From assembly GCA_020348925.1 (NCBI GenBank), contig CP070758.1, positions 218,234-242,860 on the forward strand: a DNA stretch of 24,627 nt. The letters run 5' to 3'. The notes under the pieces were generated by a model. That model was not told the origin of the DNA. It saw only the letters and a program-made list of their open reading frames with translations, and did not search any database. The position numbers and the translations under genes are program-made. Source of the stretch: Gemmatimonadota bacterium (GTDB lineage: Bacteria; JBHIER01; G020348925). Each line of letters starts with the position of its first letter. The first letter of the stretch is position 1. Shown here piece by piece: positions 3,247 to 23,707 of the stretch.

Positions 3247-3269
3247 TCATCATTATCATGGAGGATCAC

Positions 3270-6257: not shown

Positions 6258-6411
6258 AGATCATTGATCACTCCTGAAGTGATTCGATTCCTGCAATCCC
6301 TTCGAGCCTTCCTGACGGATGAGGATTTTGCTCAATGTTTGATACTTCATATAAAACCATGTTCGAGAAGAGTATTCTCTTTTTGAAATTATCCCAATCC
6401 ATATAATCGTG
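6258..6411 (+). pseudogene. Decayed linker and sorting-domain remnant of the SBBP gene
   Basis: Reading on in the same frame past the TAG at 6255-6257 gives ITPEVIRFLQSLRAFLTDED, clearly homologous to the linker of the neighbouring genes (TPEVLQFCESLRSYLPHED). A TGA follows at about 6385-6387, then NYPNPYNR, a relic of the NYPNPFNP signature. The rest of the sorting domain is missing and the sequence runs directly into the ribosome binding site of the next gene. This is seen directly in the sequence. A nonsense mutation followed by deletion is the likely history. Confidence 0.85.
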
Positions 6412-6420
6412 GAGGATTAC

Positions 6421-9400
6421 ATGAAAATAACGTCACTCGTTTTGATAATCGCTGTCGGAATCATGATCTCTGCAAATGCTCAGATCTTTGAAAATCAAGT
6501 GAGCACGTCAGGCAAAGATAACACTGCTCTAACCACAGAAACCCGCCTCTCATCGCAAATGGCAAGTCTGCACATTCCTTTCATTGCCAATGACGGACAA
6601 TACGACGAACAGGTGGCGTATTCCGCCCGGACATTCGGGGGGACTGTATTCATTACGCATGATGGTGACATCGTCTATGCCCTGCAGCACGTTCAGCGGG
6701 ACAACACACTCTCTGGTGTAGCTCTCAGAGAACAATTCGTCAGATTTTCACGCTTCCGGATAACTGGAGAGAACCTGTCCAATGCCACCATAAACAGTTT
6801 TACAGGAAACGACCGATCGATGCGGACACGGAACATTCCCGCCTACGACCTCGTGAATCTCGGTGAGGTATACGAAGGTATTATCGTAAAGCTCAAGGCC
6901 CACGGTAACAATGTTGAGAAGCTCTTCTGTGTGCAGCCCTGGGCCGATCCTGGGGACATCAGGGTAGAACTCTCCGGTGGGGACGGTTTACGGGTCAATC
7001 CTGCCGGTGAACTGGAGGCAATGACACCTCATGGGACGGTTTCCTTTACCAAACCAATTGCATATCAGGAAGCTTTCGGTCAGCGTTTTTTTGTCGAGGT
7101 CGCTTATCGAGTTCATGGAAATGAATATGGTTTCAGTGTCGGGAATTATAATCCTGAACTTCCTCTCATTATTGATCCATTACTGGCTTCGACATTCCTT
7201 GGGGGAAGCGGTGACGAGGTAGCCTGGCCATCCGCCGGACTGGCCGTTGATGGTGAAGGCAACATATATGTTGCGGCGACCACATATTCAGCCGACTTCC
7301 CCGCAACCACCGGGACATACATGATCGACCACCAGGGCGGAAACACCGATGTGGTTCTATGCAAGTTCGACGGGGATCTCTCGACGCTGCTCGCAGCCAC
7401 CTATCTCGGCGGAAATTCAGACGACGGGACGCCGTTCATCGCCATCGATGGAGATGGCAACATCTTCGTTACGGGTGAGACATCCTCATCGGACTTCCCC
7501 ACCACGCCCGGTGCCTTCAGGGAGACCCGCCCCGGGCTCGTTGACGTTTTTGTCGCCAAGTTCAGCAATGACCTCACGACGCTTCTGGCCAGCACCTATC
7601 TCGGCGGTTCGGTCCGCGACGATCACGCCAAAATCGCCGCGGACGACCTCGGCCACGTCTTTGTCACCGGCCGAACCCAGTCATCCAACTTTCCCGTCAC
7701 GGAGGGCGCTTTCGACGAGAGTCACAATCCGGGTTACGATGTTTTTCTGTCCAAGCTCAGCAATGACCTGACGACCCTTCACGCTTCCACCTTCCTGGGA
7801 CCCGGCTGCGCGGATGACCGTCCGGCCATCGATCTGGACCACGACGGCAATCCCGTCGTGACAGGGACCACAGAATCGTTCTCCTTTCCGACCACTCCGG
7901 GAGCCTACCAGGAGTCCTTCGGGGGTCAACTCGATATCTACGTGGCGAAACTGAACGACGATCTCAGCGCCCTGGTCGCCTCGACCTTCATTGGATCGGC
8001 CAGCTTTGAAATGGGCTACGGCGTGGCCGTCAGCAGCGACAACTCCGTCTTTGTGACATCGCACCCCACCGCCAGCTATCCCACCACCCCGGGTGCGTAC
8101 CAGACGACCTTCGGCGGCGGCGTGGCGGACGCCGGCGTCGCCAAGCTGGACGCCGATCTGACCACATTGGTCGCTTCAACGTATATCGGTGGCAACGCCA
8201 ACGATGCCGCCATATCCGTTGCCCTTGATAACGACGGCAACGTCCTCGTGTCCGGCTACACCGACTCCCCGGATTTTCCCGTCACACCCTCAGCCATCGA
8301 TCCTGACTACAACGGCTCAGACGACGGCTTTGTGGCCAAACTGTCACCGGATCTATCCACCCTTTTAACGTCGACCTTTCTCGGCGGCTCTGCATCCGAC
8401 GACGCAAATGCCGTTACCATCAATGACGAAGGTACAATCATCATCAGTGGCTCTACCGCTTCCACCAATTTCCCCACTACAAGCGGTGCCTACGATGAAA
8501 GCCAAAACGGCGGCAGAGACGTTTTCGTTGCGCTGCTTGATTTCTCCCCCTTCACCCGCGTGACCGACGGCGTCGTCGTCACTGATGGCGGACTGTCCGT
8601 GGGTGCCTGCTGGGTCGATTACGACGGGGACGATCTCCCCGACCTCTACGTGGTGAACGATGGAAACGACGAGATATCCAGGAATAATTTTCTCTATCAC
8701 AACGAGGGAGACGGGACATTCACCAGGGTTCACGATCAGCCCATGGCAAATGACGGCGCCAGCAGCTACGGCGCCAGCTGGGCCGATTATGACAACGACG
8801 GAGATATCGACGTCGTTCTGGCCAACTTCAAGGGCTATGCCAATGTCCTCTATGTGAACGACGGGTTCGGCCATTTCACCGCGGACGTTGCCAATCCAAT
8901 CAGCCAGGATGCGGCCGGCTCCACATCCCCCAGCTGGATCGACTACGACCTGGATGGCGACCTGGACCTGTTCATCGCCAATTCATCCAACGACCTGGAT
9001 GAATATCCGCCCTTCGAGAATTTTCTCTATCGCAATGATGAAGGGACATTCACCCGGATCACCACCGGTGACTTGGTCACCCTCGCCCGGCACACCTACG
9101 GAAACTGCTGGGGCGACTACGACAGTGACGGCGATCCCGATCTTGTCAATTCGAACAACATGCCGGAGCCTCTCGATCTGTTTCGCAACGACGGCTCGGG
9201 TACGTTCACGCGACTTCCCACCGATGTGTTCGGCTCTGTCAGTGCAAACGGAGGCGGCGCCGCCTGGGCCGACTACGATAACGACGGCGACCTGGATCTG
9301 TTTGTCGCCAACTTCTGGCCGGGACCGAGCTTCCTGTATCGGAACGACGGCGATGGTTCCCTCACCAACCTCATCGGTCACGGCCTGGGCCTGGTTTCCG

Positions 9401-10869
9401 GCCGGGCCAACGGCGGCGCCTGGGCCGACTATGATAACGACGGTGACCAGGATATCTTTGTCTGGCTGAATGATTACGAGGTCCCTGCCAATGCCCTGGG
9501 GTATCTCTTTGTCAATAATGGAGACGGCTCTTTCACCAGGCTCTCCCCCGCTTCTTTCGAGTGCGACGCCTGCAGAGGGAACACCGCCGTCTGGGGCGAT
9601 TACGACCGGGACGGGGATCAGGACCTGTTCGTCGCCCGGGCCATGTGGGAGCTGGGGCACACCGACAATTTGCTCTTTCGAAATAACACCTCCGGAAACC
9701 ACTGGCTGGTCGTGAAGCCCACCGGTGTTTTATCGAACCGATCGGCCATCGGCGCCAAGGTCAGGGTAAAGGCGACCCTTGGCGGGAGCCCTGTCTGGCA
9801 GATGCGCGAATTGAGAAGTCAGACAGGCGCCCATGCCCAGAGTCCCCTGGAGACACACTTCGGCCTGGGGGATGCCACCATCATTGACTCGATAAGAATA
9901 GAATGGCCCAGCGGCATGGTCGACATTCTGACCGACGTGAATGTCGATCAATTCCTCGTCGTTACCGAAGGAGAATTCGGCGACCTGGACGGTGATGGCA
10001 TTGCCGACATCATCGACAACTGTCCCAATAATCCCAATCCTGATCAAGAGGATAACGATGCCGATGGTGCAGGCGATATCTGCGACAACTGTCCGGACGA
10101 CGCCAATCCGGATCAAGCGGATGCCGACAGCGACAACACCGGTGACGCCTGTGACCTTTGCACCGACACTGACGGCGACGAATACGGCGATCCTGGCTAT
10201 CCGGCCAACACGTGCCAGGAGGACAACTGTCCGACCGTCCATAACCCGGATCAGGCTCAAGCCGAACAGGGCAACATCAACTGCGACGGCGGAATCAACG
10301 TGCTGGATGTGCTGGCAACCATCAACCACATCTTGGGCATAACGCCCCTGGTCGGTGCCCCCCTCGACCGAGCCGACTGCAACGGCGACGGCGGCGTCAA
10401 TATTTTGGACGCTCTGGGTATCATTAACGTTATCCTCGGTACAGGCGAATGCGAACCAACAACCGCAAAACCCGTTCTCACTTCCAAAGTCATCCAGTTC
10501 TGCGAGTCGTTGGAGTCCTCTCTCACTCCTGAGCAATTTTCTCGGTTCATGGCGCTTGTGAGGGGAGAATCCCAAACTCCTGCGGAGTATGCTCTCTCCC
10601 AGAACTATCCCAATCCTTTCAACCCCTATACAGAAATCAGGTATCAGATCCCAGATGTGAGATTGCCCGCCCACACCACCCTGAAGATTTTCAACACTCT
10701 CGGACAGGAGATCCGGAGGTTAGTGGATGAACCTCAGGAGACCGGGTATTACACTGTTACATGGGATGGCAGGGATGAACACGGTCATCCCGTGAGTTCA
10801 GGCGTGTACTTCTACCAAATAGTTGCGGAGGATTTTTACAAGACGAGGAAAATGTTGCTCTTGAAATAA
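6421..10869 (+). CDS. Giant secreted protein with SBBP propeller, FG-GAP/VCBS propeller, ASPIC/UnbV, TSP3, dockerin and T9SS domains
   Basis: ATG 6421 follows GGAGG (6411-6415) and encodes signal peptide MKITSLVLIIAVGIMISANA; an in-frame GTG at 6409 lies upstream of that site and is less likely. The product is 1482 residues. A DUF7948-like domain (~30-245) is paralogous to that of the previous gene. Seven SBBP units follow (~254-710), then seven FG-GAP/VCBS units (~711-1090) with the core [16 protein letters not shown]. Next are an ASPIC/UnbV domain (~1093-1183, with AIGAKVRVKA and IRIEWPSG), TSP3-like repeats (~1187-1280), dockerin (~1283-1344), linker and sorting domain (~1397-1482, [13 protein letters not shown]). 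The Asp-rich loops suggest calcium binding. By family this is a surface adhesion or binding protein; no catalytic site is visible. The central ~2.4 kb looks more GC-rich than the ends. Confidence 0.9.
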   Translation: MKITSLVLIIAVGIMISANAQIFENQVSTSGKDNTALTTETRLSSQMASLHIPFIANDGQYDEQVAYSARTFGGTVFITHDGDIVYALQHVQRDNTLSGVALREQFVRFSRFRITGENLSNATINSFTGNDRSMRTRNIPAYDLVNLGEVYEGIIVKLKAHGNNVEKLFCVQPWADPGDIRVELSGGDGLRVNPAGELEAMTPHGTVSFTKPIAYQEAFGQRFFVEVAYRVHGNEYGFSVGNYNPELPLIIDPLLASTFLGGSGDEVAWPSAGLAVDGEGNIYVAATTYSADFPATTGTYMIDHQGGNTDVVLCKFDGDLSTLLAATYLGGNSDDGTPFIAIDGDGNIFVTGETSSSDFPTTPGAFRETRPGLVDVFVAKFSNDLTTLLASTYLGGSVRDDHAKIAADDLGHVFVTGRTQSSNFPVTEGAFDESHNPGYDVFLSKLSNDLTTLHASTFLGPGCADDRPAIDLDHDGNPVVTGTTESFSFPTTPGAYQESFGGQLDIYVAKLNDDLSALVASTFIGSASFEMGYGVAVSSDNSVFVTSHPTASYPTTPGAYQTTFGGGVADAGVAKLDADLTTLVASTYIGGNANDAAISVALDNDGNVLVSGYTDSPDFPVTPSAIDPDYNGSDDGFVAKLSPDLSTLLTSTFLGGSASDDANAVTINDEGTIIISGSTASTNFPTTSGAYDESQNGGRDVFVALLDFSPFTRVTDGVVVTDGGLSVGACWVDYDGDDLPDLYVVNDGNDEISRNNFLYHNEGDGTFTRVHDQPMANDGASSYGASWADYDNDGDIDVVLANFKGYANVLYVNDGFGHFTADVANPISQDAAGSTSPSWIDYDLDGDLDLFIANSSNDLDEYPPFENFLYRNDEGTFTRITTGDLVTLARHTYGNCWGDYDSDGDPDLVNSNNMPEPLDLFRNDGSGTFTRLPTDVFGSVSANGGGAAWADYDNDGDLDLFVANFWPGPSFLYRNDGDGSLTNLIGHGLGLVSGRANGGAWADYDNDGDQDIFVWLNDYEVPANALGYLFVNNGDGSFTRLSPASFECDACRGNTAVWGDYDRDGDQDLFVARAMWELGHTDNLLFRNNTSGNHWLVVKPTGVLSNRSAIGAKVRVKATLGGSPVWQMRELRSQTGAHAQSPLETHFGLGDATIIDSIRIEWPSGMVDILTDVNVDQFLVVTEGEFGDLDGDGIADIIDNCPNNPNPDQEDNDADGAGDICDNCPDDANPDQADADSDNTGDACDLCTDTDGDEYGDPGYPANTCQEDNCPTVHNPDQAQAEQGNINCDGGINVLDVLATINHILGITPLVGAPLDRADCNGDGGVNILDALGIINVILGTGECEPTTAKPVLTSKVIQFCESLESSLTPEQFSRFMALVRGESQTPAEYALSQNYPNPFNPYTEIRYQIPDVRLPAHTTLKIFNTLGQEIRRLVDEPQETGYYTVTWDGRDEHGHPVSSGVYFYQIVAEDFYKTRKMLLLK
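6603..6678 (+). repeat. 76-bp tract identical to 3428-3503
   Basis: Second copy of the perfect match (offset 3175). Identity islands among diverged flanks are the pattern expected from gene conversion between tandem paralogues, or from strong local constraint at DNA level. Confidence 0.9.
9988..10286 (+). repeat. ~300-bp near-identical TSP3-dockerin segment, copy 1
   Basis: This stretch aligns without gaps to 12548-12846 in the next gene with only scattered substitutions. It covers the TSP3-like repeats and the start of the dockerin. Both genes also resemble each other strongly in the sorting domain (around 10630-10710 and 13195-13275). Confidence 0.88.
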
Positions 10870-10928
10870 GCCTCGGCGGATTTCGAAAAACTCTTTTCCC
10901 AAATCCTGGAGATCAAGGGGAGGATTGA

Positions 10929-13430
10929 ATGAAGCATATATTTCCAAGAATATCGGGTACACTTTTATTATGGGCAGGAGGAATGGTTTCGATTTTCATG
11001 CTGGCTCCCGTTTTCTCCACATCCCAGGTTACCCAACTCACACATGATCCGGAATGGGCGAAACATCCTGTTCGGTCACCGGACGGCTCGGCAATAGCCC
11101 TTGCGTCAGACGAAGTGATACATCTTGAGCACGATGATCAATTCACCCGAATCTATGAGGGTGATCTCGTCACCGACGGCGGCAGCTCACAAGGCGTGAG
11201 CTGGATCGATTACGACAACGACGGCTATCTGGATCTGTTCGTCAGTAATCTGATCTGGCCCACCGGTCAGGACAACTGGTTATATCATAATAACGGCGAC
11301 GAAACTTTCAGTAAAATCACTGAGGGAGATATCACCCATGACGGTGGTCTATCGCGGACCAGCACCTGGGGCGATTGCGACAACGACGGCGATCCGGACT
11401 GCTTCGTATCGAACTGGCCGGATGAACGCAACTTTCTCTATCTCAACGACGGCCATGGCACCTTCACAAAGGTCACTACGGGGGAAATAGTCAATGAAAA
11501 CAGGGGTTCCCCGGCCGCCGCTTGGGCCGATTACGACAACGACGGCGACCTGGACCTCTTTGTGGCCAATTACGGTCCAAATTCCCTGTTTCGAAATGAC
11601 GGTGAAGGATTTACCAAAATCACGAGTGGGGATATCGCGACCGATGTCAGTGATTCGTACAGCGCAGCCTGGGGTGATTACGACAACGACGGCGACCTCG
11701 ATCTCTTTGTGACCTCCAACTACGGAAACCTGAATAACTATTTCTATAAAAATAACGGGGACGGGACCTTCGAAAAAGTCACCGGTCAGAATATTGTCAG
11801 CGACGGCGGAGAATCCTTTGGTGGCAGCTGGGGTGATTACGACAACGACGGTGATCTGGATCTCTTTGTGCCGAACATCTCGTACTCGACCGACGGCAAC
11901 AATTTCCTGTACAACAATAATAGTGACGGAACTTTCACCAGAATCACGCAGGGCGACATCGTCAATGACGGCGGATACTCCTTCGGCAGTGCCTGGGGCG
12001 ATTACGATAATGACGGCGACCTGGATCTGTTCGTGTCGAACTATCCCGATGGGGGACAAAGCCGAGACTTCCTTTACGAAAACAATGGGGGTGGGACCTT
12101 CTCAGGCGTAACGGGTGAAGGAGTCGTTACCGATGAAGGAGCCTCATACGGGGCCGCCTGGGGTGATTACGATCGGGACGGCGATCTGGATCTGTTCGTC
12201 GCCAAATTCGCGGATCAAAACGAGAACAATACCCTCTACCAGAACAATGGGAGTAATAATAACTGGATCAATATAAAATGTGTGGGAACGATTTCAAACA
12301 CTTCGGCCATCGGGGCAAAGGTTCGCATCAAAGCGTTCATTTACGGCACTCCTACTTGGCAGCTCCGTGAGATCTCAGCACAAACAGGATACTGCAGCCA
12401 AAACAGCCTCAATGCTCATTTTGGTTTGGCTGACGCGACATTAATCGACTCAATCAAGATCGAATGGCCCAGCGGTACGGTTGATATCCTGACCGATATC
12501 GATGTCAACCAATTTGTAATCATAACAGAAGGTGAGTGCGGTGATTTGGATGGAGATGGCATTGCCGATGGAAACGACAACTGTCCCAATAATCCCAATC
12601 CTGATCAAGAAGATAACGATGCCGATGGTGCAGGCGATATCTGCGACAACTGTCCGGACGACGCCAATCCGGATCAAGCCGATGCTGACAGCGACGACAC
12701 CGGTGACGCCTGTGACCTTTGCACCGACACTGACGGTGACGGTTACGGCGATCCCGGCTATCCGGCCAACACGTGCCAGGAGGACAACTGTCCGACCGTC
12801 CATAACCCGGATCAGGCTCAGGCCGAACAGGGCAACATCAACTGCGATTCCGGTATCAACGTCCTGGATGTACTGGCCGCCATCAACCACATCTTGGGTA
12901 TAACGCCCCTGATCGGTGCTCCTCTCGACAGAGCCGACTGCAACGGTGATGGAGGCGTCGATATTTTGGATGCCTTGGGTATTATCAATGTCATCCTGGG
13001 TACAGGTGAGTGTGCCCCAAATTCTCTGAAACCGCTCGTCACTCCTGAAGTCATTCGGTTCTGCGAGTCCCTTGAGCCCTATCTCCTTTCTGAAGAGTTC
13101 GCCCTGTTCATGTCTCTGGTGAAAGCTGAGTACCAGACTCCTGACGGGTACTATCTCTCCCAGAACTATCCCAATCCCTTCAATCCGCATACAGAAATGA
13201 GATATCAGATCCCAGATGTGAGATTGCCCGACCACACCACCCTGAAGATTTACAACATTCTTGGACAGGAGGTGCAGACGTTGATCGATGAGGTCCAGGA
13301 ACCGGGTTATTACACTGTCATATGGGATGGTACGGATGAGAGAGGTCAAAAGGTGAATTCAGGTGTGTACTTCTATCGGTTAACAGCGAAGAACTATTGT
13401 CAGACAAGAAAAATGTTGCTCGTAAAATAA
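10929..13430 (+). CDS. Secreted FG-GAP/VCBS propeller protein with ASPIC/UnbV, TSP3, dockerin and T9SS domains
   Basis: ATG 10929 follows GGGGAGG. The 833-residue product begins with a hydrophobic export signal (~1-33). A short segment (~34-58, [10 protein letters not shown] and SPDGSAIAL) resembles a single TolB/PD40-type blade. Seven FG-GAP/VCBS units (~71-437) carry the motif [14 protein letters not shown]. An ASPIC/UnbV domain (~443-535), TSP3-like repeats (~536-635), dockerin pair (~637-697), linker and sorting domain (~748-833, [13 protein letters not shown]) follow. The order from FG-GAP onward is the same as in the preceding gene, so it is a shorter paralogue without the SBBP half. 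Probably a calcium-stabilised surface binding protein; ligand unknown. Confidence 0.9.
12548..12846 (+). repeat. ~300-bp near-identical TSP3-dockerin segment, copy 2
   Basis: Collinear with 9988-10286 in the previous gene, same length, a small number of mostly single-base differences. Points to recent duplication or conversion of the C-terminal module. Confidence 0.88.
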
Positions 13431-13470
13431 TTCAGGGAGGATGGGCGCACTTAAAACCTTTGCACCCGAA

Positions 13471-13476
13471 AGGAGG
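13471..13476 (+). promoter_or_regulatory. Strong Shine-Dalgarno that fixes the start of the UGA-containing gene
   Basis: AGGAGG lies five bases before ATG 13482. The alternative GTG at 13626 has no purine-rich site before it. This supports initiation upstream of the in-frame TGA. Confidence 0.85.
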
Positions 13477-13481
13477 AGACC

Positions 13482-15839
13482 ATGAGAAAGGCATTCATTT
13501 TTATGCTGTTCTCAGTTGCTTTGACCTCAGCTATCCTGGGCGAAGCGCAAGCCGCCCAGCGAATGGTTCTGGCCGAGCTCTTCGCCAACAACTCTTGAGT
13601 ACCTTGTGGCGTAGCGGCCCCCCGTGTGAGGGTCCTTGAAGAAAATTATCCCGAAATCCTGACTATGATTCAGTATCACCCTTGGTGGCCAGATTCCTCC
13701 GAAGTTTTCTACGTGGCCAATAGGCATGAAAATCGCGCCCGAAATATGTATTACGACAACGAATTTTTACCCCACCTTTTTCTTGACGGATTCATTGACG
13801 CCAGTAATGACCCGGGGGACGACACCTGGTTCAACATGGTCACCGACAGGGCTCAGGTGGAGAGTCCCCTTGAGATGAACCTTGAAATCGATTTTGACGG
13901 ATCGGGCGGCACCGTGTACGCTCACATCACCGCCGAGGAGGCCATTACTCAATCCGATCCGGTGATCCACTTTGTTCTCACCGAATCGGAAATCGAACAT
14001 GAGGCGCCCAACGGTATCTCTCTCCATCACAACATCATGCGCAAAATGCTCCCGGACGAGAAGGGTGAATCTTTCACGATCCAGGCGGGCCAGTCACTCA
14101 ATCTCTCACGAGAATTCATTCTCCAGCCCGAATGGGTGCCTGAGAGCTGCGCTTTTGTTGTTTTCATTCAGGATAATGTGACCGGCGAAGTGCTCCAGGC
14201 AGCGAGGTCGAGGATTTTCACTTCGATCTCGATGATGACTTACAGTCTCACCGAGCCGGATGGAGATGGTGATGGAAATTTCGAGCCCGGGGAAACCGTA
14301 CATCTATTCCTCTCCCTGATGAACTTCGGCCCTCTCGCTACGGATGTTTCGGTTCTCTTGACTTGTGATGATCCGGATATCTCACTTCTGACGAGTGGAA
14401 TTCAGTTTGAAGATATCCCCCTCAACACCACAATGGACAACTCTGCTTTCCCCCTCATTTTCCAGATCGACCAGTCCGTCGGGGCCCACTATACGACTCT
14501 GACTGCTGAAGTGACGGCCAATGGTGGGCAGGTTTCATTTCAGGAGAGCATCGAAATTCTTGTGGGAAAACCCGAAATCCTCATCGTGAACGACGATCAC
14601 CTTCCTCCTCCCTACTCCTGGGACTATGATGCCGAGGGCTTGTACCGAAGGGCCCTTGACGACAGAGGCGAAACCTATCACGTCTGGAATACGCAGGTAT
14701 CCGGTACGCCGGAGGGATACCTGCTGCAGGAGTATGAGATCGTAATCTGGTTCACGAGTGTGTCTGACTTCACTCTGAATACGGAGGATGAAGCTGCTCT
14801 GACATCATTCCTGGACTCAGGCGGTCGTCTCATCATCAGCGGCGAGGACATTGGCGCTGATCTGGCATCCTCAGACTTTCTGAGCGAACACCTTCATGCC
14901 CAGCTCATGAGCGACAACAGCAGCAATCCCATTCTCTCCGGAGTACAGGGAGACGTCATCAGCGGGAACGTATCCTTCATGTCCATCAACGGCATCGAGG
15001 GGGTGAATAATCGCCCTGACGTGATTGGGCCGCTCTCAGGGGCCACGCCGTTTTTCACCTACGGTGTCTCAGGTGAGCCGGCCGCCATTCGGTACGGAGG
15101 TGACTACAAAGTTGTCTATTTTGCCTTCGGTTTCGAGGGCATTTTGGACTTCTATAACGCGGAGAACAGTTCTACCCTGAGAGCCGATCTCATGCAAAAC
15201 ACACTGAACTGGCTGAGACAGGAGTTTACACCCCAGGTCGGTGATGTGAACGAGGACAGTGCAGTCGACATACTCGACGTGTTGTGGGTGGTGAACATCG
15301 TCCTTGGGATAGACGTACCAACATCCGGACAGGAGTGGGCAGCCGACTGCAACGGCGACGGGGGAATCGACATCTTAGACGCATTGGGCATTATTAACGT
15401 GATTCTCGGGACGGGCGCATGCTCCTCGACAACTGTGAAACCAACACTCACATTTGAAGTTATGCAGTTTTGTCAATCGTTGAAATCGTACCTCTCCCAT
15501 GAGGAATTTGATCGGTTCATGACTTTGATCAAGGGAAATGCGCAGGTTCCAGTTGAGTTCCACCTTGCTCAGAACTATCCCAATCCCTTCAACACCAACA
15601 CAGAGATCAAATTTCAGATACCGGTTGAAACATCCATGCCGCACGTTACACTAATTGTCTATAACCTTCTCGGTCAGGAGATAAAAACCTTGGTGAACGG
15701 GTTGAAGGAACCGGGTGTTCACACTGTGACCTGGGATGGGAAGGATAACTTTGGAAGCGGTGTTTCCAGCGGTATGTATTTCTATCGCTTCAAAGTGGGC
15801 AAATTCATGGCCATGAGGCGCATGATACTGTTGAAGTAA
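13482..15839 (+). CDS. Candidate selenoprotein: thioredoxin/Omp28-like secreted protein with UxxC motif, dockerin and T9SS domain
   Basis: ATG 13482 has an ideal ribosome binding site and a signal peptide ending in GEAQA. Codon 39 is TGA (13596-13598) inside LAELFANNS-TGA-VPC, followed in the same frame by 746 open codons. The position matches the first Cys of a CxxC in thioredoxin-fold proteins of the Omp28-related type, so the natural reading is Sec39-x-x-Cys42. The fold continues with YHPWWPDS and the cis-Pro-like PHLFLDG (~97). Next are a beta-rich region (~135-245), a CARDB-like region (~245-360, with GDGNFEPGETV), a ThuA/glutamine-amidotransferase-like domain (~363-580, EILIVNDDH and GGRLIISGED), dockerin (~586-647), linker and sorting domain (~694-785, [11 protein letters not shown]). 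If TGA is a stop instead, this is a disrupted gene and the GTG at 13626 would give a 737-residue product with no signal peptide. Role is probably extracytoplasmic thiol/selenol redox chemistry; the substrate is unknown. Confidence 0.75.
13596..13640 (+). promoter_or_regulatory. In-frame TGA (Sec39) and candidate bacterial SECIS hairpin
   Basis: After the TGA, 25 nt lead to a hairpin. CCC (13621-13623) pairs with GGG (13630-13632), enclosing loop GUGUGA (13624-13629). The lower pair GG (13616-13617) with CC (13634-13635) lies across an asymmetric internal loop. Alternatively GGCCCC pairs with GGGUCC around an 8-nt loop. Bacterial SECIS elements typically have a small apical loop starting with GU some 16-37 nt after UGA, which this fits. 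The stem is short and imperfect, so it remains a candidate. Confidence 0.5.
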
Positions 15840-15900: not shown

Positions 15901-16968
15901 ATGAACAACAGATCCAACACAAAATTAGTCCACGCATTGGATCCAGGGGTAATAACCACACTCCCGGGGCGGAGACCTTTCGTGAGGAGGGAATTCTTAA
16001 TAAAGCTCTTCATTTTCTCCTCCATATTCGTACTGAGTGTGGACACGCTTTATAAATATTACCACGGTATAACCTATTTGAAGAGAGAAGATTGCATCCT
16101 CTATGCGATACTTCCGAAGTGGGCTTTCATTCTCTTCGAACACTTCATCGAACTCATCCTTATCGTGGTCGTCGCCATTTTCGCGGCGGCCATCATCGAA
16201 AAATACTTCATCAGATTGAAGAAATTCATCCCAAAAAACACGCTCTCAGCCTTTATCTATGCCTCGGTCATACCGGTCTGTTCCTGCAGCGCCATTCCTC
16301 TCGTGCCGGCCATGAAAGACAAGCTCCCTTTTCGGGCCATCATCACCTTTGTCGTTGCAGCACCTCTTTTGAATCCGTACATCATTATGCTTTCAGTGAC
16401 TGTTTTGGGATTACGATACGCCCTGGTGAGGATTTTTTGCTCGTTCATTCTTGCAGTGGCCTCCGGATATATAGCAGAGATGCTGTACAGGCGAATGAAA
16501 CATCAGGAGCTTGGTGTCTGGAACGGCTGTCATACCAGAGAAAACTGCATGGCGGAAGGGAAAAGTGTTTATGAAGATACGTTCATGATCTTCAAAAAAA
16601 TCTTTCCCTTCCTGATCGTTGCCGGCGTTCTGAGTGCTGTTTTCGACCAGTTTGTTCCAAGGCATCTCTTTGACAATTACGATCTGAGTAATCATTTCCT
16701 CGGAACCGGTCTCGTCATCCTCATTGGAGTACCCGTCTATTTCTGCAACGGCGCAGATGTTCTGTTCTTGCAGCCACTATTGCAATACAGCCACTTGCCT
16801 CTCGGAACAGCTATGGCCTTCTCTCTCACCTCGACCTCTGTCTGCATCTCATCACTGATCCTGCTGATTAAATTTATCGGGAAAAAACTCACCTTAACCA
16901 TTTTAGCCAGTGTTGTCATCATAACCTTCTTGTTGAGCCTCGGAATCCAACTCATCTCAATGGTATAA
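15901..16968 (+). CDS. ArsP/DUF318-family permease
   Basis: This 355-residue integral membrane protein belongs by motif to the ArsP_1 (DUF318) permease family. It has hydrophobic segments at about 33-50, 73-100, 115-135, 146-170, 173-195, 235-250, 266-283, 303-323 and 328-352. The hallmark VCSCSAIPLVPAMK (CSCS at 127-130) and the later VYFCNGADVLFLQPLL are visible. A cytoplasmic or periplasmic loop at ~207-218 contains NGCHTRENC, a Cys/His cluster that could bind metal or thiol-reactive ligand. Relatives export organoarsenicals or are predicted metal or metalloid effluxers; the substrate here cannot be told. No clear ribosome binding site precedes ATG 15901, so the start is uncertain. It stands 61 bp after the surface-protein cluster and ~550 bp before tupB, and belongs to neither block clearly. 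Confidence 0.85.
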   Translation: MNNRSNTKLVHALDPGVITTLPGRRPFVRREFLIKLFIFSSIFVLSVDTLYKYYHGITYLKREDCILYAILPKWAFILFEHFIELILIVVVAIFAAAIIEKYFIRLKKFIPKNTLSAFIYASVIPVCSCSAIPLVPAMKDKLPFRAIITFVVAAPLLNPYIIMLSVTVLGLRYALVRIFCSFILAVASGYIAEMLYRRMKHQELGVWNGCHTRENCMAEGKSVYEDTFMIFKKIFPFLIVAGVLSAVFDQFVPRHLFDNYDLSNHFLGTGLVILIGVPVYFCNGADVLFLQPLLQYSHLPLGTAMAFSLTSTSVCISSLILLIKFIGKKLTLTILASVVIITFLLSLGIQLISMV

Positions 16969-16986
16969 TCGACGGACGTTTTGATC

Positions 16987-17008
16987 GCCCGGTTTACGTA
17001 TGCCGGGC
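16987..17008 (+). terminator. Possible weak terminator hairpin after the permease gene
   Basis: GCCCGG (16987-16992) pairs with CCGGGC (17003-17008) around a 10-nt loop, 19 bp after the permease stop codon. The following bases are A/T-rich but not a T tract, so termination strength is doubtful. Confidence 0.35.
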
Positions 17009-17338
17009 AAATATAGTTACACGTATATATATCCCTACTCTGTTCTGTCCTAATACCTCCCAAAGGAAATCCCTATACGATCAAGATTAAGATACCAGTT
17101 TCGTCCTTCGGCGACGCTCTTTATCTTTTATAACGTAACCGTTTGACGTAACCGAAACGGGCCACGTTGAATGATCTGTCTGGTTAATATCATCTTAAAG
17201 AAGGCATCCCATGGTTCATCACATTCGCACCTATTGCATGGTCATTCCTTATTCTACGGGGCAGGCATCGTAACCGTAACCTTAACCCTATCCCTAAATG
17301 TGCATCCGTGGCAAAGAATACGGATAAAAAGAAACTCC
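17009..17338. other. Non-coding gap before the tup promoter
   Basis: I see no convincing gene here. A frame of 81 codons at 17171-17416 lacks a ribosome binding site and family features and overlaps the promoter and the start of the leader. The nonamer ACGTAACCG occurs twice, 13 bp apart (17133-17141 and 17146-17154), and a third GTAACCG follows near 17270. These could be binding sites for a regulator of the transport genes, but nothing proves it. Confidence 0.5.
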
Positions 17339-17367
17339 TTGACTTTACATCCAAAAAAGGATATTTT
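17339..17367 (+). promoter_or_regulatory. Sigma70-type promoter for the tup leader
   Basis: TTGACT (17339-17344) and TATTTT (17362-17367) are separated by exactly 17 bp in an A/T-rich context. Transcription would begin near 17374, placing the structured leader described next at the start of the transcript. Confidence 0.6.
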
Positions 17368-17414
17368 AAGGTTTCGAAAATATCTCAGAGCCATTGTGTC
17401 TAAAGGACTTCCAT

Positions 17415-17493
17415 GATACGATGGCCGACAGGGCAGATGGGGGAAACTCCGCTGCCTCCCGTGTTTGGAAAGGAGATGCGAAGGGATAAAGTC
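17415..17493 (+). ncRNA. Moco/Tuco-riboswitch-like leader
   Basis: The leader contains CCGACAGGGCAG and CTGCCTCCCGTG. GGCAG (17432-17436) pairs with CUGCC (17452-17456), and inside it GGGG (17439-17442) pairs with CUCC (17447-17450) capped by a GAAA tetraloop. The GCCUCC element after a GNRA-capped hairpin is reminiscent of the molybdenum/tungsten cofactor (Moco RNA motif) riboswitch, which by established knowledge sits upstream of oxyanion transport and pterin cofactor genes. Its position directly before an intrinsic terminator and tupB fits transcriptional attenuation by cofactor. The match is from memory of the motif, not from a covariance search. Confidence 0.65.
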
Positions 17494-17522
17494 AGCGCCT
17501 GTAGAACACGGGCGCTTTTTTT
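17494..17522 (+). terminator. Intrinsic terminator in the tup leader (likely riboswitch expression platform)
   Basis: AGCGCCTGT (17494-17502) and ACGGGCGCT (17508-17516) form a 9-bp stem with one G-U pair and a 5-nt loop, ending in a run of seven T (17516-17522). It lies 23 bp before the tupB start, so it controls read-through rather than ending an upstream gene. Confidence 0.85.
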
Positions 17523-17545
17523 GTTACCCAATATTATCAGGTTCT

Positions 17546-18238
17546 ATGCAGTATCTATTTGAGGGCATTGCCAAAGCACTAAGTTTGATCTCATCTCTGG
17601 ACCCGGAAGTCCTCTCAGCTGTCTGGGTTTCGCTCCGGACCTCTGTCACTGCTATTGCTTTCGCTTCCCTGATCGGAGTTCCTATCGGATTCTTAGTGGC
17701 GACACACAATTTTCGGGGTAAGCGACCGGTTGTCTTACTACTGAACACGCTCATGGCACTCCCGACTGTTGTCGTCGGCCTGATCGTGTACTCTTTCCTG
17801 TCACGTCAAGGTCCTCTGGGACCACTCGGATTGCTCTATACACCCTCAGCCATGGTCGTGGGGCAGTTCATTCTGGCCACTCCCATTGTGGCAGCCCTCA
17901 CACTCACGGCGGTTCAGGGCATAGACCCAAGGGTTCGCCAAACAGCAGTCACTTTGGGAGCAAATCGACTCCAACTGGCAATGACGATGACTTCCGAGGC
18001 TCGATTTGCGATTACGGCGGCTATTATTGCCGGCTTTGGACGCATCATCGCTGAAGTCGGCTCAGCCATGATGCTCGGCGGAAATATTAGGGGCTACACC
18101 AGAACCATGACCACAACTATAGCCCTCGAGACGAGCAAGGGCGAATTCGCTCTCGGAATTGCCCTCGGAGTTATTCTATTGATCGTTGCCTTCACTGTAA
18201 ACATCCTTTTTCAAGCGTTGCAGAGGCGAGGGATATGA
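17546..18238 (+). CDS. tupB: Tungstate ABC transporter permease
   Basis: The product is 230 residues, the usual TupB size, with five or six membrane spans. It begins MQYLFEGIAKALSLI and carries the ABC-permease coupling region around VRQTAVTLGANRLQLAMTM and the family stretch IIAEVGSAMMLGGNIRGYTR. ATG 17546 is chosen because the longer frame (TTG 17465) would translate the riboswitch and terminator; the site before ATG is weak (CAGG). By family it forms the membrane channel for tungstate, or possibly molybdate, import. It overlaps tupC by four bases (ATGA), showing translational coupling. Expression is probably set by the leader RNA. No substrate-binding gene (tupA) adjoins it. Confidence 0.88.
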   Translation: MQYLFEGIAKALSLISSLDPEVLSAVWVSLRTSVTAIAFASLIGVPIGFLVATHNFRGKRPVVLLLNTLMALPTVVVGLIVYSFLSRQGPLGPLGLLYTPSAMVVGQFILATPIVAALTLTAVQGIDPRVRQTAVTLGANRLQLAMTMTSEARFAITAAIIAGFGRIIAEVGSAMMLGGNIRGYTRTMTTTIALETSKGEFALGIALGVILLIVAFTVNILFQALQRRGI

Positions 18239-19251
18239 ATCAAGGACCAATACTTGAACTTCTCAACGTCAAGCACAGCTATAACCGACGCATCGTTCTC
18301 GACATACCCGACATGTCCTTTCAGTCAGGTGGGCTCTATGGAGTCGTCGGTCCCAATGGTGCAGGAAAGACGACCCTGCTGAAAATATTGAGTTTCCTCG
18401 AGGAACCGAGAGAGGGCAGCATCCGATTCGAGGGACAGTTCGTGAATTTCTCGGAGAACGGACTCAATTCTTTACGGCGGCAGACGACGCTCGTTATGCA
18501 GGACCCGCTCCTCTTTCACAATACGGTCCTGAAGAACGTAGCCTACGGATTATGGGTGAGAGGTGTTGAGAAATCCGAGAGGATGAGACGGGCCCTGAAA
18601 GTTCTGGACACCGTCGGCTTGACTCGATACGCCGACCAGAAAGCACAGAACCTTTCCGGTGGCGAGATCCAGCGCGTCGCCATCGCCCGTGCCCTGGCCA
18701 CCAATCCTAAAGTACTTCTTCTGGACGAACCCACGGCCAATCTCGATCGACCCCACACCTCCTCCATCATAGATACGCTTCGGGATATTAATACACAGTT
18801 CGGAACAACCATTATCCTGGCCACCCACAATTTGAGACAGGCGTACGGCTTTTCCAATGACGTCATATCCCTGTTGGACGGGCGTTCCGTCGGAAGTCAT
18901 CCGGATAATCTCTTCCAAGGTAAAATTGTCGAACAAAACGGCCGAACCTGGTTATCGATCGACGATAGTTACGGCTTTTATATTGTCTCCGATCGACGCG
19001 GCCCGGCGTACGCCTCGGTAGATCCGAAGGAGATCATAGTTTCACGGGAACCTTTTGATTCCAGTGCCCTCAATTGCCTGCACGGGAAAATCGTCGGCCT
19101 TCATCAGGAGGGGTCCCTGATCCGACTCACAGTTGATACCGGAGTGCCCTTCGTCTCGTTGATCACGATGACGTCTTTTGAAGAAATGCAACTGAATATC
19201 AACACGACTGTCTATCTCACGTTCAAGGCAGCCTCCGTCGAGGTCTATTAA
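18235..19251 (+). CDS. tupC: Tungstate ABC transporter ATP-binding protein
   Basis: This 338-residue ATPase energises TupB. Walker A is GPNGAGKT (39-46), the Q-loop Gln89 is in VMQDP, the signature is LSGGE (140-144), Walker B LLLDEP (161-166) and the H-loop His198 is in ATHN. Residues ~235-338 form a TOBE/Mop-like C-terminal domain (GKIVGLHQEGSLIRLTVDTG), the oxyanion-sensing region found in molybdate and tungstate ATPases. The ATG overlaps the tupB stop, so the two genes are one operon. TupC versus ModC assignment rests on the neighbouring TupB-type permease. Confidence 0.88.
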   Translation: MNQGPILELLNVKHSYNRRIVLDIPDMSFQSGGLYGVVGPNGAGKTTLLKILSFLEEPREGSIRFEGQFVNFSENGLNSLRRQTTLVMQDPLLFHNTVLKNVAYGLWVRGVEKSERMRRALKVLDTVGLTRYADQKAQNLSGGEIQRVAIARALATNPKVLLLDEPTANLDRPHTSSIIDTLRDINTQFGTTIILATHNLRQAYGFSNDVISLLDGRSVGSHPDNLFQGKIVEQNGRTWLSIDDSYGFYIVSDRRGPAYASVDPKEIIVSREPFDSSALNCLHGKIVGLHQEGSLIRLTVDTGVPFVSLITMTSFEEMQLNINTTVYLTFKAASVEVY

Positions 19252-19297
19252 TATGACATCTCGGAAATTCTACGATTTACGAGATGTATCAGGGGGT

Positions 19298-19393
19298 TTG
19301 GGGGAAAGGATGCGCTTTCCCCCAAGGGGCAACAGGATTTCGATGTGAGCTGGTGGAGCATCGAAATCCGCCATAGGGGCGAAAGCCCCTTGG
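19298..19393. repeat. Palindrome-rich intergenic element between tupC and moeA
   Basis: The gap 19252-19485 contains nested perfect inverted repeats. TTGGGGGAAAG (19298-19308) pairs with CTTTCCCCCAA (19315-19325). GGATTTCGATG (19335-19345) pairs with CATCGAAATCC (19359-19369). AGGGGC pairs with GCCCCT around GAAA (19375-19390). CCAAGGGGC (19322-19330) can also pair with GCCCCTTGG (19385-19393). Such multi-hairpin units are usually dispersed genomic repeats, though a structured RNA cannot be excluded. Short frames on the minus strand here look spurious. Confidence 0.75.
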
Positions 19394-19430
19394 GAACGTT
19401 GCGAGCAAAGCGAGCTCAGTTCGATTATGA

Positions 19431-19453
19431 GCCACAGAGACGCGGAGACACGG
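19431..19453. repeat. CACAGAGA-type dispersed repeat, copy 1
   Basis: GCCACAGAGACGCGGAGACA and three further bases match 20727-20749 with 3 differences in 23. Both copies flank moeA, one just before it and one just after. Variants of this purine-rich motif are common as intergenic repeats in environmental bacterial genomes. Confidence 0.7.
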
Positions 19454-19485
19454 ATATAAACAAGAAACAATTTTGAGGAAAATCC

Positions 19486-20715
19486 ATGGCACCCTTTTGG
19501 AAGGTTATTACGAGGGAAGAAGCGGAGCAACTATACGCAGACATTAAACCGCTGGAGTCGGAGCGGGTACACATTCAGTATTGTTTGGACCGAGTCTTGG
19601 GAGAGGACATCATTTCAGAGGTTGACGTCCCACATTTCCCCCGATCAAACATGGACGGCTACGCCGTTCGAGCGGAGGACACGTACGGAGCCTCGGAAAG
19701 CTCACCCATAACTTTGAAGATCGTAGGTAAGGTGGACATGGGAAAGGTAGCAGACCTTTCCATCTCGCCTGGAGAAGTGGCTCACATCGCCACAGGCGGA
19801 ATGCTTCCTGAGGGAGCGGATGCCATGGTCATGGTGGAATATACGGAGGCTCCTGAGAATGATAGGGTAGCCATCAAGAGGGCCGTAGCACCTGGAGAGC
19901 ATATCGTCTCAATCGGAGAGGATATAAAGCGTGGTCAACTCCTGTTGAAAAAAGGCAACCGGCTGAGGGCCCAGGATATTGGGGTTTTAGCCGCTGTTGG
20001 TGTAACGGAGGTGGCAGTACATCGCCGGCCCCGCGTTGGTATTCTTTCCACCGGGGATGAGATTGTGCCTCCTGAGGTGGAACCGAAACCCGGACAAGTG
20101 AGGGGCACGAATATCTATACATTATCGGCTTTGACAGTGAAGTTCGGTGGTGAGCCCATCGACTTCGGGATCGTTCGTGATGAATTCGAGACGTTGAAGG
20201 AAAAAATAGCCGCGGCAATCCAGTCGTGCGACATCGTCGCCATTTCGGGTGGCAGCTCCGTGGGGACCCAGGATATTACATTATGCGTCATCAAATCCTT
20301 TGAGGCAAAAGGAATTCTGGCTCACGGCGTCGCCATCCGGCCGGGAAAACCGACGATTCAGGCTCTGGTCAGTGGGAAACCTGTGATCGGACTGCCAGGC
20401 CATCCGGTCTCGGCAGCCGTCGTTTACGGGCTCTTGGTGAAGCCCATCATTTACCGACTGACAGGCGCGTCGGAGAACCTTTCCGAGCAAGCCGCGATTC
20501 GGGCCAGGCTGTCCCAAAACGTCCCCTCCCCCTCGGGCCGGGAGGATTACGTGAGAGTAACTTTGAGGCGTGAGGGAGACCTGTGGTGGGCGGACCCGAT
20601 TTTCGGGAAATCGGGCGCCATAACGACCCTCACGAAAGCGGATGGACTCGTGAAAATCGACCTCGAACTCGAGGGACTGGAGGAGGGCCAATGGGTCGAG
20701 GTGAAACCCTTTTAG
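19486..20715 (+). CDS. moeA: Molybdopterin molybdenumtransferase MoeA (paralogue 1)
   Basis: MoeA inserts molybdate or tungstate into adenylated molybdopterin in the cytoplasm. The 409-residue product is full length. It shows RSNMDGYAVRAEDT (53-66), the MoeA/MogA-fold motifs STGDEIV (188-194), SGGSSVGTQD (254-263) and RPGKP (285-289), then GLPGHPVSA (302-310) and a C-terminal beta domain ending EGLEEGQWVEVKPF. ATG 19486 follows GAGG (19475-19478). It is separated from tupC and from the second moeA by repeat-filled gaps, so it may have its own transcript. With a divergent second copy nearby, this one keeps the standard motifs and is the better candidate for the general enzyme. Confidence 0.93.
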   Translation: MAPFWKVITREEAEQLYADIKPLESERVHIQYCLDRVLGEDIISEVDVPHFPRSNMDGYAVRAEDTYGASESSPITLKIVGKVDMGKVADLSISPGEVAHIATGGMLPEGADAMVMVEYTEAPENDRVAIKRAVAPGEHIVSIGEDIKRGQLLLKKGNRLRAQDIGVLAAVGVTEVAVHRRPRVGILSTGDEIVPPEVEPKPGQVRGTNIYTLSALTVKFGGEPIDFGIVRDEFETLKEKIAAAIQSCDIVAISGGSSVGTQDITLCVIKSFEAKGILAHGVAIRPGKPTIQALVSGKPVIGLPGHPVSAAVVYGLLVKPIIYRLTGASENLSEQAAIRARLSQNVPSPSGREDYVRVTLRREGDLWWADPIFGKSGAITTLTKADGLVKIDLELEGLEEGQWVEVKPF

Positions 20716-20726
20716 TCTGGAGGTTC

Positions 20727-20749
20727 GCCACAGAGATGCAGAGACACAG
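20727..20749. repeat. CACAGAGA-type dispersed repeat, copy 2
   Basis: GCCACAGAGATGCAGAGACA and three further bases; see the copy at 19431-19453. It starts 11 bp after the moeA stop codon. Confidence 0.7.
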
Positions 20750-20781
20750 GGCCTGAATAATGCGTAAATACAAACAGAAGC

Positions 20782-20866
20782 TGTCATTCCTGCGCATGCA
20801 GGAATCTCCTCGATTTTTACAACAGACTCTCAATGAAGGAGATTCCGGGATAAACCCGGAATGACA
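20782..20866. repeat. 85-bp MITE-like palindromic repeat
   Basis: The unit is bounded by TGTCATTCC (20782-20790) and GGAATGACA (20858-20866). Inside are hairpins ATTCCTGC/GCAGGAAT (20786-20805) and ATTCCGGG/CCCGGAAT (20842-20862), and the arms GGAATCTCCT (20801-20810) and AGGAGATTCC (20837-20846) are complementary. There is no coding capacity. The structure resembles the TGTCATTCC-type miniature inverted repeats found widely in bacteria. Confidence 0.8.
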
Positions 20867-20883
20867 TAGCACAGAATGTCTCT

Positions 20884-20965
20884 CGTTCCCAAACTCTGTT
20901 TGGGAACGTAAATGCTCAAGGAAACTCCGTTTCCGTTTCAATACAACTCCCAGATCGGAATCTGG
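20884..20965. repeat. Cluster of three short hairpin repeats
   Basis: CGTTCCCAAAC/GTTTGGGAACG (20884-20908), GGAAAC/GTTTCC around TCC (20920-20934) and CCAGAT/ATCTGG around CGGA (20950-20965) follow each other. They resemble a known type of dispersed GTTCCCAA palindromic repeat. Together with the 85-bp unit they fill the 311-bp gap before the second moeA. Confidence 0.75.
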
Positions 20966-21026
20966 AAGAGAGCATTAAAGGAAATTCGTATACGACACAC
21001 TTAGAAAGTAAAGAAAGGTACAGAAG

Positions 21027-22229
21027 TTGAAGAGAACAATCTATCTGGAAAAACGGCCGTGGAGTGAAGCCCTTGAACTCTTTCTCGATACGTTCAGGGA
21101 CATGTATCCGCTGCAAGGCGAGGAGGTACTTGTTGAACAAGCTTTGGACAGAATCGTCACCTCGGATGTCACGGCCAGAATCTCTTCACCCCATTACGAT
21201 GGTTCGGCCATGGATGGTGTCGCGGTTCGATCCGAAGACACCATCGGTGCCGATCTCTCCACGCCGAAGCAACTCAAAGTCGGCACAGAGACCCATTTCG
21301 TCGATACCGGTTCACCTCTCCCCCAGGGGTTCGATGCCGTCATACAGATCGAGGACGTCCATGAGATTGATGACGAAACCATCGAAATTTACTCGCCCGT
21401 CGCCCCGTGGCATTACGTGAGAAGAATAGGAGAAGATGTCAAGGAGGGAGATCTCCTCCTTCGCCAAAACTCCCGAATCGGGCCTTACGACATCGCTACA
21501 CTCTTGGCAGGAGGAGAAACAACAGTCACCGTCCGAAGCAAGCCAAAATTTGGCGTTTTGCCGACAGGTTCCGAACTGGTCGAACCGGGCAGCGCCCTGA
21601 AGCCCGGTGACATCATCGAATTCAATTCCCGCATGGTCAAAGCCCTCATCACCCAATGGAGCGGAACGTGCCAGCGATATGCTATCGTCCCTGATGAATT
21701 CGAAACGGTGGAAACAAGCGTGAAGAAAATCTTAGAGGATAATGATGCGGCCATCATCATTGCCGGCTCATCAGCAGGGCGAAGGGATTTTACGCCTCAA
21801 GTCGTAGAAGAGTTGGGTGACATTATCGTCCACGGAGTGAACGTCATGCCGGGAAAACCTGTGGTTCTGGGTAGAATTGAAAACAAACCGGTCATAGGAT
21901 TACCGGGCTATCCGGTCTCCGCTGCAGTCATTATGGATCTCTTTATCAAACCCCTCGTCTGCACGATGCTCGGCACTCCCATAATAGAAAGACGAAAGAT
22001 CCAAGCATCTTTGACTCAGAAGATCTACTCGAAACTGGGCATGGAAGAGTTCGTGAGGGTAACCATCAAGAAAGATAAGGAGAAAGTTATTGCTACTCCG
22101 TTAACACGAGGAGCAGGCGTGATCTCGTCTCTGGCCAAAGCCGACGGTATACTGCGCATTCCAGATAATATGGAAGGACTGGAGGCAGGATCAGAGGTCG
22201 AAGTGGAGCTGCTCAAAGAGATATGGTGA
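21027..22229 (+). CDS. moeA: MoeA-family protein (divergent paralogue 2)
   Basis: The 400-residue product starts at TTG 21027, nine bases after AAAGG; the N-terminus YLEKRPWSEALELFLDTF supports it, since the next ATG would cut this conserved helix. It has SSPHYDGSAMDGVAVRSEDT (53-72), PTGSE (179-183) where paralogue 1 has STGDE, AGSSAGRRD (246-254) in place of SGGSSVGTQD, MPGKP (274-278) and GLPGYPVSA (291-299). The changed motifs suggest a specialised role, for example tungsten rather than molybdenum insertion; this is inference. It lies eight bases before moaA and is probably the first gene of the moeA-moaA-moaC-MOSC operon. Confidence 0.9.
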   Translation: MKRTIYLEKRPWSEALELFLDTFRDMYPLQGEEVLVEQALDRIVTSDVTARISSPHYDGSAMDGVAVRSEDTIGADLSTPKQLKVGTETHFVDTGSPLPQGFDAVIQIEDVHEIDDETIEIYSPVAPWHYVRRIGEDVKEGDLLLRQNSRIGPYDIATLLAGGETTVTVRSKPKFGVLPTGSELVEPGSALKPGDIIEFNSRMVKALITQWSGTCQRYAIVPDEFETVETSVKKILEDNDAAIIIAGSSAGRRDFTPQVVEELGDIIVHGVNVMPGKPVVLGRIENKPVIGLPGYPVSAAVIMDLFIKPLVCTMLGTPIIERRKIQASLTQKIYSKLGMEEFVRVTIKKDKEKVIATPLTRGAGVISSLAKADGILRIPDNMEGLEAGSEVEVELLKEIW

Positions 22230-22236
22230 TTTCAAA

Positions 22237-23214
22237 ATGAAACCTTATAAAAACCCTTTCGGGGGTGCGATAGACTATTTAAGAATCTCAATTACCGACC
22301 GCTGCAATCTGAGATGTGTCTATTGCATGCCGCCGGAAGGTGTAACGCCCTCACCCCACGAGAGCATTCTCACGTACGAGGAAATCTGCACGCTGGTCGA
22401 AATCGGAGTGCAGCATGGAATACGAAAGGTGCGTATCACAGGCGGCGAGCCCCTTGTCAGACGAGATGTCATCAGTCTTATCACATCTCTCAACCAAATC
22501 TCCGGCCTGGAGGAGATCACCCTCACCACGAACGGGGTATGTATCAGCGAGTTTGCTCCTGACCTGAAAGCCGCTGGAATTTCTCGGATCAATATCTCCC
22601 TGGACACTTTGAGCCGGGAGAAATTTACCCGAATCACCCGTCGTGACGATCTCGATTCTGTGCTGCGTGGAATCGACACGGTTTTACAAATGGGCTTTGA
22701 ACCGGTCAAGATCAACGTCGTGGCTATGAAGGGTTTGAACGACGATGAAATCGCTGACTTCGGAAAACTGACCATTGACCGTTCTCTCCATGTGAGATTC
22801 ATCGAATTTATGAGTCTGGGAGGATTCGCGCGAAAACACAGCAGCTACTTTTTCCCCGCCGATATGGTACAAAAGAGACTGGAGAGGGTGGGTCCGCTGG
22901 AACCGGTGAATCCGATAAAAGGCAACGGTCCTGCCAGGTATTTCACGTATCCCAACGCTCTGGGAACGGTTGGGCTGATCAGTCCTCTCAGCCACGGCTT
23001 CTGTGAGATGTGCAACCGGTTGCGGGTGACCGCCGACGGAAAATTGAGACCGTGCCTTCTCTCCGATGTCGAGCTCGACGTAAAAAGGGTCCTGCGTATG
23101 AATGGGGGCAAGGAGGCCGTTTCGAATCTTTTCCAACAGGCCATGGTTCAGAAAACGTTCAAACTTGAAATGAATAATAGTAATCATCGCTTTATGAGAT
23201 CGATTGGAGGGTAG
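22237..23214 (+). CDS. moaA: GTP 3',8-cyclase MoaA
   Basis: MoaA is the radical SAM enzyme that converts GTP to 3',8-cyclo-7,8-dihydro-GTP, the first step of molybdopterin synthesis. The N-terminal iron-sulfur cluster motif is [10 protein letters not shown] (Cys23, Cys27, Cys30). ITGGEPLVR (~68-76) binds SAM. The second cluster is C256-x2-C259-x13-C273 (HGFCEMCNR). The C-terminal RSIGG ends in the conserved Gly-Gly needed for activity. At 325 residues it is full length. GGTGA lies 8 bases before the ATG. moaC starts five bases after the stop. Confidence 0.96.
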
Positions 23215-23218
23215 TATT

Positions 23219-23707
23219 TTGAATGATAAAATACAAGAAACACCAAAATTGACCCACCTCGATGAAGAGGGCCGGGCCAAAATGGTGGATGTCACGGACA
23301 AGGCCGTCACGAAAAGAATAGCTGTGGCGGAGGGAGAGATCAGGTTGCGGCCGGAGACATTGCGGCTCATAGCGAATAAGGCTATTCCAAAGGGAGACGC
23401 CTTCGGTGTGGCACGGATCGCCGGCATCTCCGCCGCAAAAAAAACAGGCGAACTCATCCCGCTGTGCCACCCCCTGCCCATCACCCACGTCGATATCGAC
23501 TTTCATATCGATGAAGCGAAGGGCCACGTTCGCATCCGGTCGAAAGTCTCGGTGGAGGCGAAAACAGGCATAGAGATGGAGGCCCTGACGGCTGTCTCGG
23601 TTGCGGCATTGACGATATACGATATGTGCAAGGCCGTCGATAAGACCATGGTGATTTCGGATATTCGGTTGATAGAGAAAAAAGGAGGCAAAAGTGGATC
23701 GGCCTAA
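23219..23707 (+). CDS. moaC: Cyclic pyranopterin monophosphate synthase MoaC
   Basis: MoaC converts the MoaA product into cyclic pyranopterin monophosphate. TTG 23219 is preferred because GGAGG (23206-23210) precedes it by eight bases and it follows the moaA stop; a TTG at 23204 would overlap moaA. The 162-residue product has the family length. It shows KMVDVTDK (21-28), [13 protein letters not shown] (80-92) and [20 protein letters not shown] (115-134) followed by DMCKAVDK, all typical MoaC active-site elements. The last 14 bases overlap the MOSC gene. Confidence 0.95.

Follow-up and report, generated by a model that had tools for sequence, protein, structure and literature searches.

A selenoprotein with a thioredoxin-like fold and a UxxC motif was described in a 2008 ocean metagenome study as 'hypothetical protein GOS_C', represented by 74 sequences with selenocysteine (Sec) and 312 with cysteine (PMC2398784), and it is entered as NF045500 in Table 1 of a 2026 review (PMC13188914). 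NF045500 carries the NCBIfam name Omp28-related selenoprotein, and a literature search found no paper that pairs a selenoprotein with Omp28. The closest solved fold to the protein described here is that of HBP35 of Porphyromonas gingivalis (PDB 5y1a), which is secreted and sorted to the cell surface by the type IX secretion system (T9SS), and for which thioredoxin activity has been measured as the reduction of insulin via its Cys pair (PMC2907840). Moreover, HBP35 binds hemin, outside its CxxC region (PMC2907840). The Omp28 family itself (PF11551; PDB 2r2c) is a further relative.

This paper describes a gene within the window, i.e., the whole stretch of 24,627 nucleotides that was analysed, in which an in-frame TGA opens a UxxC motif in an Omp28/thioredoxin-like domain. 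The reading of this TGA as Sec is strongly supported by comparative genomics, and the gene product is probably a genuine selenoprotein, predicted to be exported via T9SS to the surface and to have a thioredoxin-like redox role.

Reading frame and domain architecture

The frame runs on the forward strand from ATG 13482 to TAA 15837-15839 over 786 codons, contains no internal TAA or TAG, and has a TGA at codon 39 as its sole internal stop, upstream of which 47 codons are open in the same frame. The residues around the site read LFANNS-U-VPC-GVAAPRV, and the features of the gene are collected in Table 1. In standard ORF calls, the window gene is listed as starting at GTG 13626, as the sequence-only reading had anticipated, and thereby loses both its signal peptide and its active site; two TGA-containing paralogues in the same genome are cut short in the same manner, with the same losses.

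Table 1. Features of the selenoprotein locus, in positions of the window.
Feature	Position	Strand	Basis
Strong ribosome binding site, AAAGGAGGAG	13469..13478	+	Sequence; precedes ATG 13482
Predicted selenoprotein gene, 785 residues, Sec as residue 39	13482..15839	+	Frame and homologue comparison
Predicted signal peptide, residues ~1-25 (MRKAFIFMLFSVALTSAILGEAQAA)	13482..13556	+	Inspection; hydrophobic helix in model; similar homologue N-termini
Omp28/thioredoxin-like domain, residues 26-245	13557..14216	+	PF11551 40.2 bits (cut-off 34.9); NF045500 52.7 bits; HBP35 5y1a Z 25.5
UGA codon predicted to be read as Sec (U39), first residue of UxxC	13596..13598	+	Frame and homologue column
Cys42, partner of Sec39 in UVPC, family-invariant	13605..13607	+	Homologue alignment
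Putative bacterial SECIS-like hairpin, GGCCCCCCGUGUGAGGGUCC	13616..13635	+	Apical loop with G ~24 nt after UGA; bSECIS model; paralogue conservation
GTG taken as start by standard gene caller, inside SECIS hairpin	13626..13628	+	Standard ORF list
Ig-like (CARDB-like) beta-sandwich, residues ~247-362	14220..14567	+	Predicted structure; structural matches
Class I glutamine amidotransferase/ThuA-like domain, residues ~363-583	14568..15230	+	GH42, ThuA-like and GATase chains, Z 13-18
Dockerin type I, residues 587-642	15240..15407	+	PF00404 42.7 bits (cut-off 22.9)
T9SS type A sorting domain (FlgD-Ig-like), residues 699-782	15576..15827	+	TIGR04183 31.7 bits (cut-off 23); PF13860 40.6 bits

The AlphaFold2 model of the protein has a mean pLDDT of 85.1, with the dockerin region modelled poorly (below 50 in places). 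In the Omp28/thioredoxin-like domain it places a strand at residues 29-34, a helix at 40-55 right after U39, a strand at 60-65, a helix at 81-90 and a strand at 98-101, the last of which is preceded by the invariant Pro97 in a thioredoxin-like arrangement. A structural search with residues 24-247 returned HBP35 as the best match (rmsd 2.2 over 217 residues; Z in Table 1), and the family profile aligns the Sec/Cys pair with the Cys pairs of HBP35 and of archaeal thioredoxins. The domains named in the sequence-only reading held up in this analysis: the signal peptide is consistent with the hydrophobic helix and with the N-termini of homologues, the CARDB-like part corresponds to an Ig-like beta-sandwich, for which a Pfam match was absent over residues ~247-362, the amidotransferase-like part matches GATase, ThuA-like and GH42 folds, and the profile scores of the C-terminal domains place the protein among the predicted type I dockerin proteins and type A T9SS cargo.

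The TGA codon, the selenocysteine machinery and the hairpin

Among 68 distinct homologous domains from the window's own and other genomes, the Sec column holds TGA in 23 and a Cys codon in 45 (29 TGC, 16 TGT), with other residues absent, and TGA does not occur elsewhere in the domain (no other one among 13,757 domain codons). Because this column holds TGA in 23 domains, Cys in 45 and nothing else, the TGA of the window gene is more than chance. The residues that precede it are conserved, and in the family alignment U39 and C42 are jointly invariant, as is a proline at the thioredoxin cis-Pro place. Two tandem paralogues in the window's genome, with domain identities of 55% and 52%, carry TGA at the same codon, whereas a third (L015; TTCEPC), with a domain 42% identical to that of the window protein, has a Cys codon and lacks the PRVxVL stretch that in the three Sec paralogues encodes the hairpin.

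The two tandem TGA paralogues lie on the minus strand of locus L093 (6491-10465) and follow the same domain plan; both stop at the dockerin and have no T9SS tail, which makes a different mode of retention or export probable. Another genome, G104, has a tandem array of two Sec copies and one Cys copy of the domain (L074, 1468-6000), an exchange of Sec and Cys between neighbours, and its other contigs carry a further two Sec copies. A contig scan yielded a single relative, in KSB1, which matches only residues 423-785, outside the Sec domain.

The genome of the window (5.04 Mb, one contig, 96.3% complete) contains a tRNA-Sec (65.8 bits; called tRNA-SeC by ARAGORN) as well as SelA (520.8 bits), SelB (396.5 bits) and SelD (372 bits), and selA, selB and selD are adjacent on the chromosome. 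SelD has an in-frame UGA of its own at the usual place (RCAGUASKL), and the genome therefore encodes at least one well-known selenoprotein. Every one of the 16 tested genomes that carry TGA copies has a tRNA-Sec, versus 12 of the 23 that have Cys copies only (11 without; Fisher p 0.0008), where this p-value and those given below are indicative only, since the homologues are related and the genomes were sampled by the tool. The sole internal stop, a homologue column of only Cys or TGA, and the presence of the Sec machinery bear out the proposal of the sequence-only reading that Sec is inserted at the UxxC motif through an in-frame UGA.

The published bacterial model of the SECIS element (bSECIS) asks for a loop of 3-9 nt with a G in its first two positions, at 16-37 nt from the UGA, and a stability of -7.5 kcal/mol or better (PMC13188914). 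These criteria apply to 21 of the 23 Sec genes versus 24 of the 45 Cys genes (p 0.001), and the SECIS alone proves little, since half of the Cys genes satisfy the model as well. The hairpin of the window gene passes with a G-containing loop at 24 nt and -7.8 kcal/mol, barely inside the limit. Among the three Sec paralogues of the genome, the DNA of the block CCCCCGTGTG..GGTCCTT hardly varies, and hairpin codons for an identical amino acid are codon-identical in 5/5 cases versus 32/94 in the rest of the domain (p 0.006); the peptide of the Cys paralogue differs at the place where these genes encode the hairpin. In seven homologues from five other genomes, moreover, the sequence around CAGUUG, 36 nt from the UGA start, forms a hairpin in which pairing is 100% and three pairs show compensatory changes.

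The window copy of the hairpin has lost two of the base pairs found in its paralogues and gained one, and is weaker for that reason: as a bare hairpin it folds at -6.6 versus -11.3 kcal/mol for the paralogues, and when the 55 nt starting at the UGA were folded without constraint, the stability was no better than that of shuffled sequences. The case for a SECIS element would stand on the published model, the conservation among paralogues and the covariation in homologues.

Export machinery and genomic neighbourhood

Matches to the T9SS components SprA (708 bits, in frame) and PorU (738 bits) are present in the window's genome. The genome also holds 81 cohesin matches and about 50 matches to T9SS tails, which amount to a large surface cohesin-dockerin set. 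Upstream of the selenoprotein gene, positions 457-13430 of the window encode four large exported proteins in tandem, i.e., an esterase with LamG, a DUF7948 protein with SBBP, and two proteins with FG-GAP and ASPIC/UnbV; a dockerin occurs in all four, and three of them have a C-terminal T9SS cassette resembling the one in the selenoprotein, the T9SS tail being absent from gene 3258-6257. Downstream, the region 15901-24131, in which most genes were named by eye from the sequence, contains an ArsP_1 permease followed by an ABC transporter, apparently of the tungstate/molybdate type, as well as cofactor genes (two MoeA-like, MoaA, MoaC and MOSC). A substrate-binding protein for this transporter was not seen in that region.

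Competing readings and comparison with known systems

If the TGA were a true stop, the locus would represent a pseudogene or encode a short secreted peptide, with the downstream frame a leftover or restarting at GTG 13626. The gene model given by a standard gene caller and the weak hairpin of the window copy are in line with such a stop, which is nevertheless very improbable in view of a frame that is otherwise intact over 785 codons, the conserved residues ahead of the TGA, and the recurrence of TGA in 23 genes, only alongside tRNA-Sec among the tested genomes; moreover, the product from GTG 13626 would end in a T9SS tail while lacking a signal peptide. A sequencing or assembly error that turned TGC or TGT into TGA is less probable still, and practically negligible, with TGA at the same codon in two paralogues of the same genome and in homologues of 16 other genomes, and nowhere else in the domain. 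Decoding of the UGA as another residue, by a reassigned code or by suppression, is formally compatible with a lone UGA and equally close to negligible: TGA is the ordinary stop of other window genes, including one in an ATGA overlap at 18235, and the code is therefore not reassigned; the complete Sec machinery, the UGA in SelD and an aligned residue that is always Cys all argue against it.

A different alternative accepts the Sec residue and holds that the protein serves mainly for binding, of heme or metal or as a cell-surface scaffold, with a UxxC role that is minor, structural or metal-binding. The hemin binding of HBP35 and the naming of other Omp28 relatives merely as outer membrane proteins favour this view, which is improbable, albeit less so than the three readings above; it sits poorly with the joint invariance of U39 and C42 and the invariant proline at the cis-Pro place. 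Sec is typically retained for catalysis, which also speaks against it.

Under the preferred reading, a surface-exported selenoprotein with a redox role, comparative genomics suggests that SelB and Sec-tRNA(Sec), guided by the hairpin 20-40 nt past the UGA, would insert Sec at codon 39. The signal peptide would direct the protein to the periplasm, and its C-terminal type A domain would mark it for type IX transport to the cell surface, as the domains and the presence of SprA and PorU suggest. There, the fold and the aligned active site point to the UxxC of the Omp28/thioredoxin-like domain acting as a selenol/thiol-disulfide oxidoreductase, like the CxxC of HBP35, and reduction or thiol exchange is the favoured direction in our analysis. 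Finally, the dockerin might tether the protein to the cohesin-bearing surface proteins that are abundant in the genome. The most elaborate version, a selenoenzyme outside the cell that leaves via type IX, is docked through its dockerin to a cohesin-bearing scaffold and carries out redox reactions on substrates there, while its amidotransferase-like domain adds a second activity, is offered tentatively and considered rather unlikely as a whole.

Like GOS_C/NF045500, the window protein combines a thioredoxin-like fold and an Omp28-related domain with one Sec in UxxC, whereas the beta-sandwich, the GATase-like domain, the dockerin and the T9SS tail appear to be additions; no NF045500 member above the cut-off was found in 386 genomes. 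It matches positions 30-268 of the 377 in the profile (239 positions), and because its score of 52.7 bits lies far below the curated cut-off of 200, it is regarded as a divergent relative and not filed as an NF045500 member. Elsewhere in the window's genome, a TSP_3 and dockerin stretch (L064, 1501-1806) matches NF045500 positions ~266-376, and calcium-binding repeats may therefore be part of the known family already, so that even a dockerin-like part might be no novelty. The earlier designation as a probable new selenoprotein is sustained for the mechanism and not for novelty in kind, since the core is related to GOS_C; judged from sequence, relatives of the selenoprotein core are already known from ocean metagenomes, and the window protein is a divergent, dockerin-carrying form of longer architecture. 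As for the Omp28 family, residues 89-245 score above the Pfam cut-off, and this match starts only past the CxxC region.

With HBP35, the window protein shares the fold, the aligned active-site pair, secretion and T9SS sorting to the surface, as predicted from its domains, whereas HBP35 has Cys in place of Sec, lacks the dockerin and the amidotransferase-like part, and is 13-15% identical. A secreted, surface-sorted selenoprotein with this set of domains had been considered unusual in the sequence-only reading; for the idea of a surface T9SS thioredoxin, HBP35 is a Cys precedent. The comparison ties GOS_C-type selenoproteins, to which no function has been attached so far, to HBP35, by which an anonymous family gains a testable activity and location, and it suggests that T9SS bacteria carry out redox reactions based on selenium at their surface or outside the cell.
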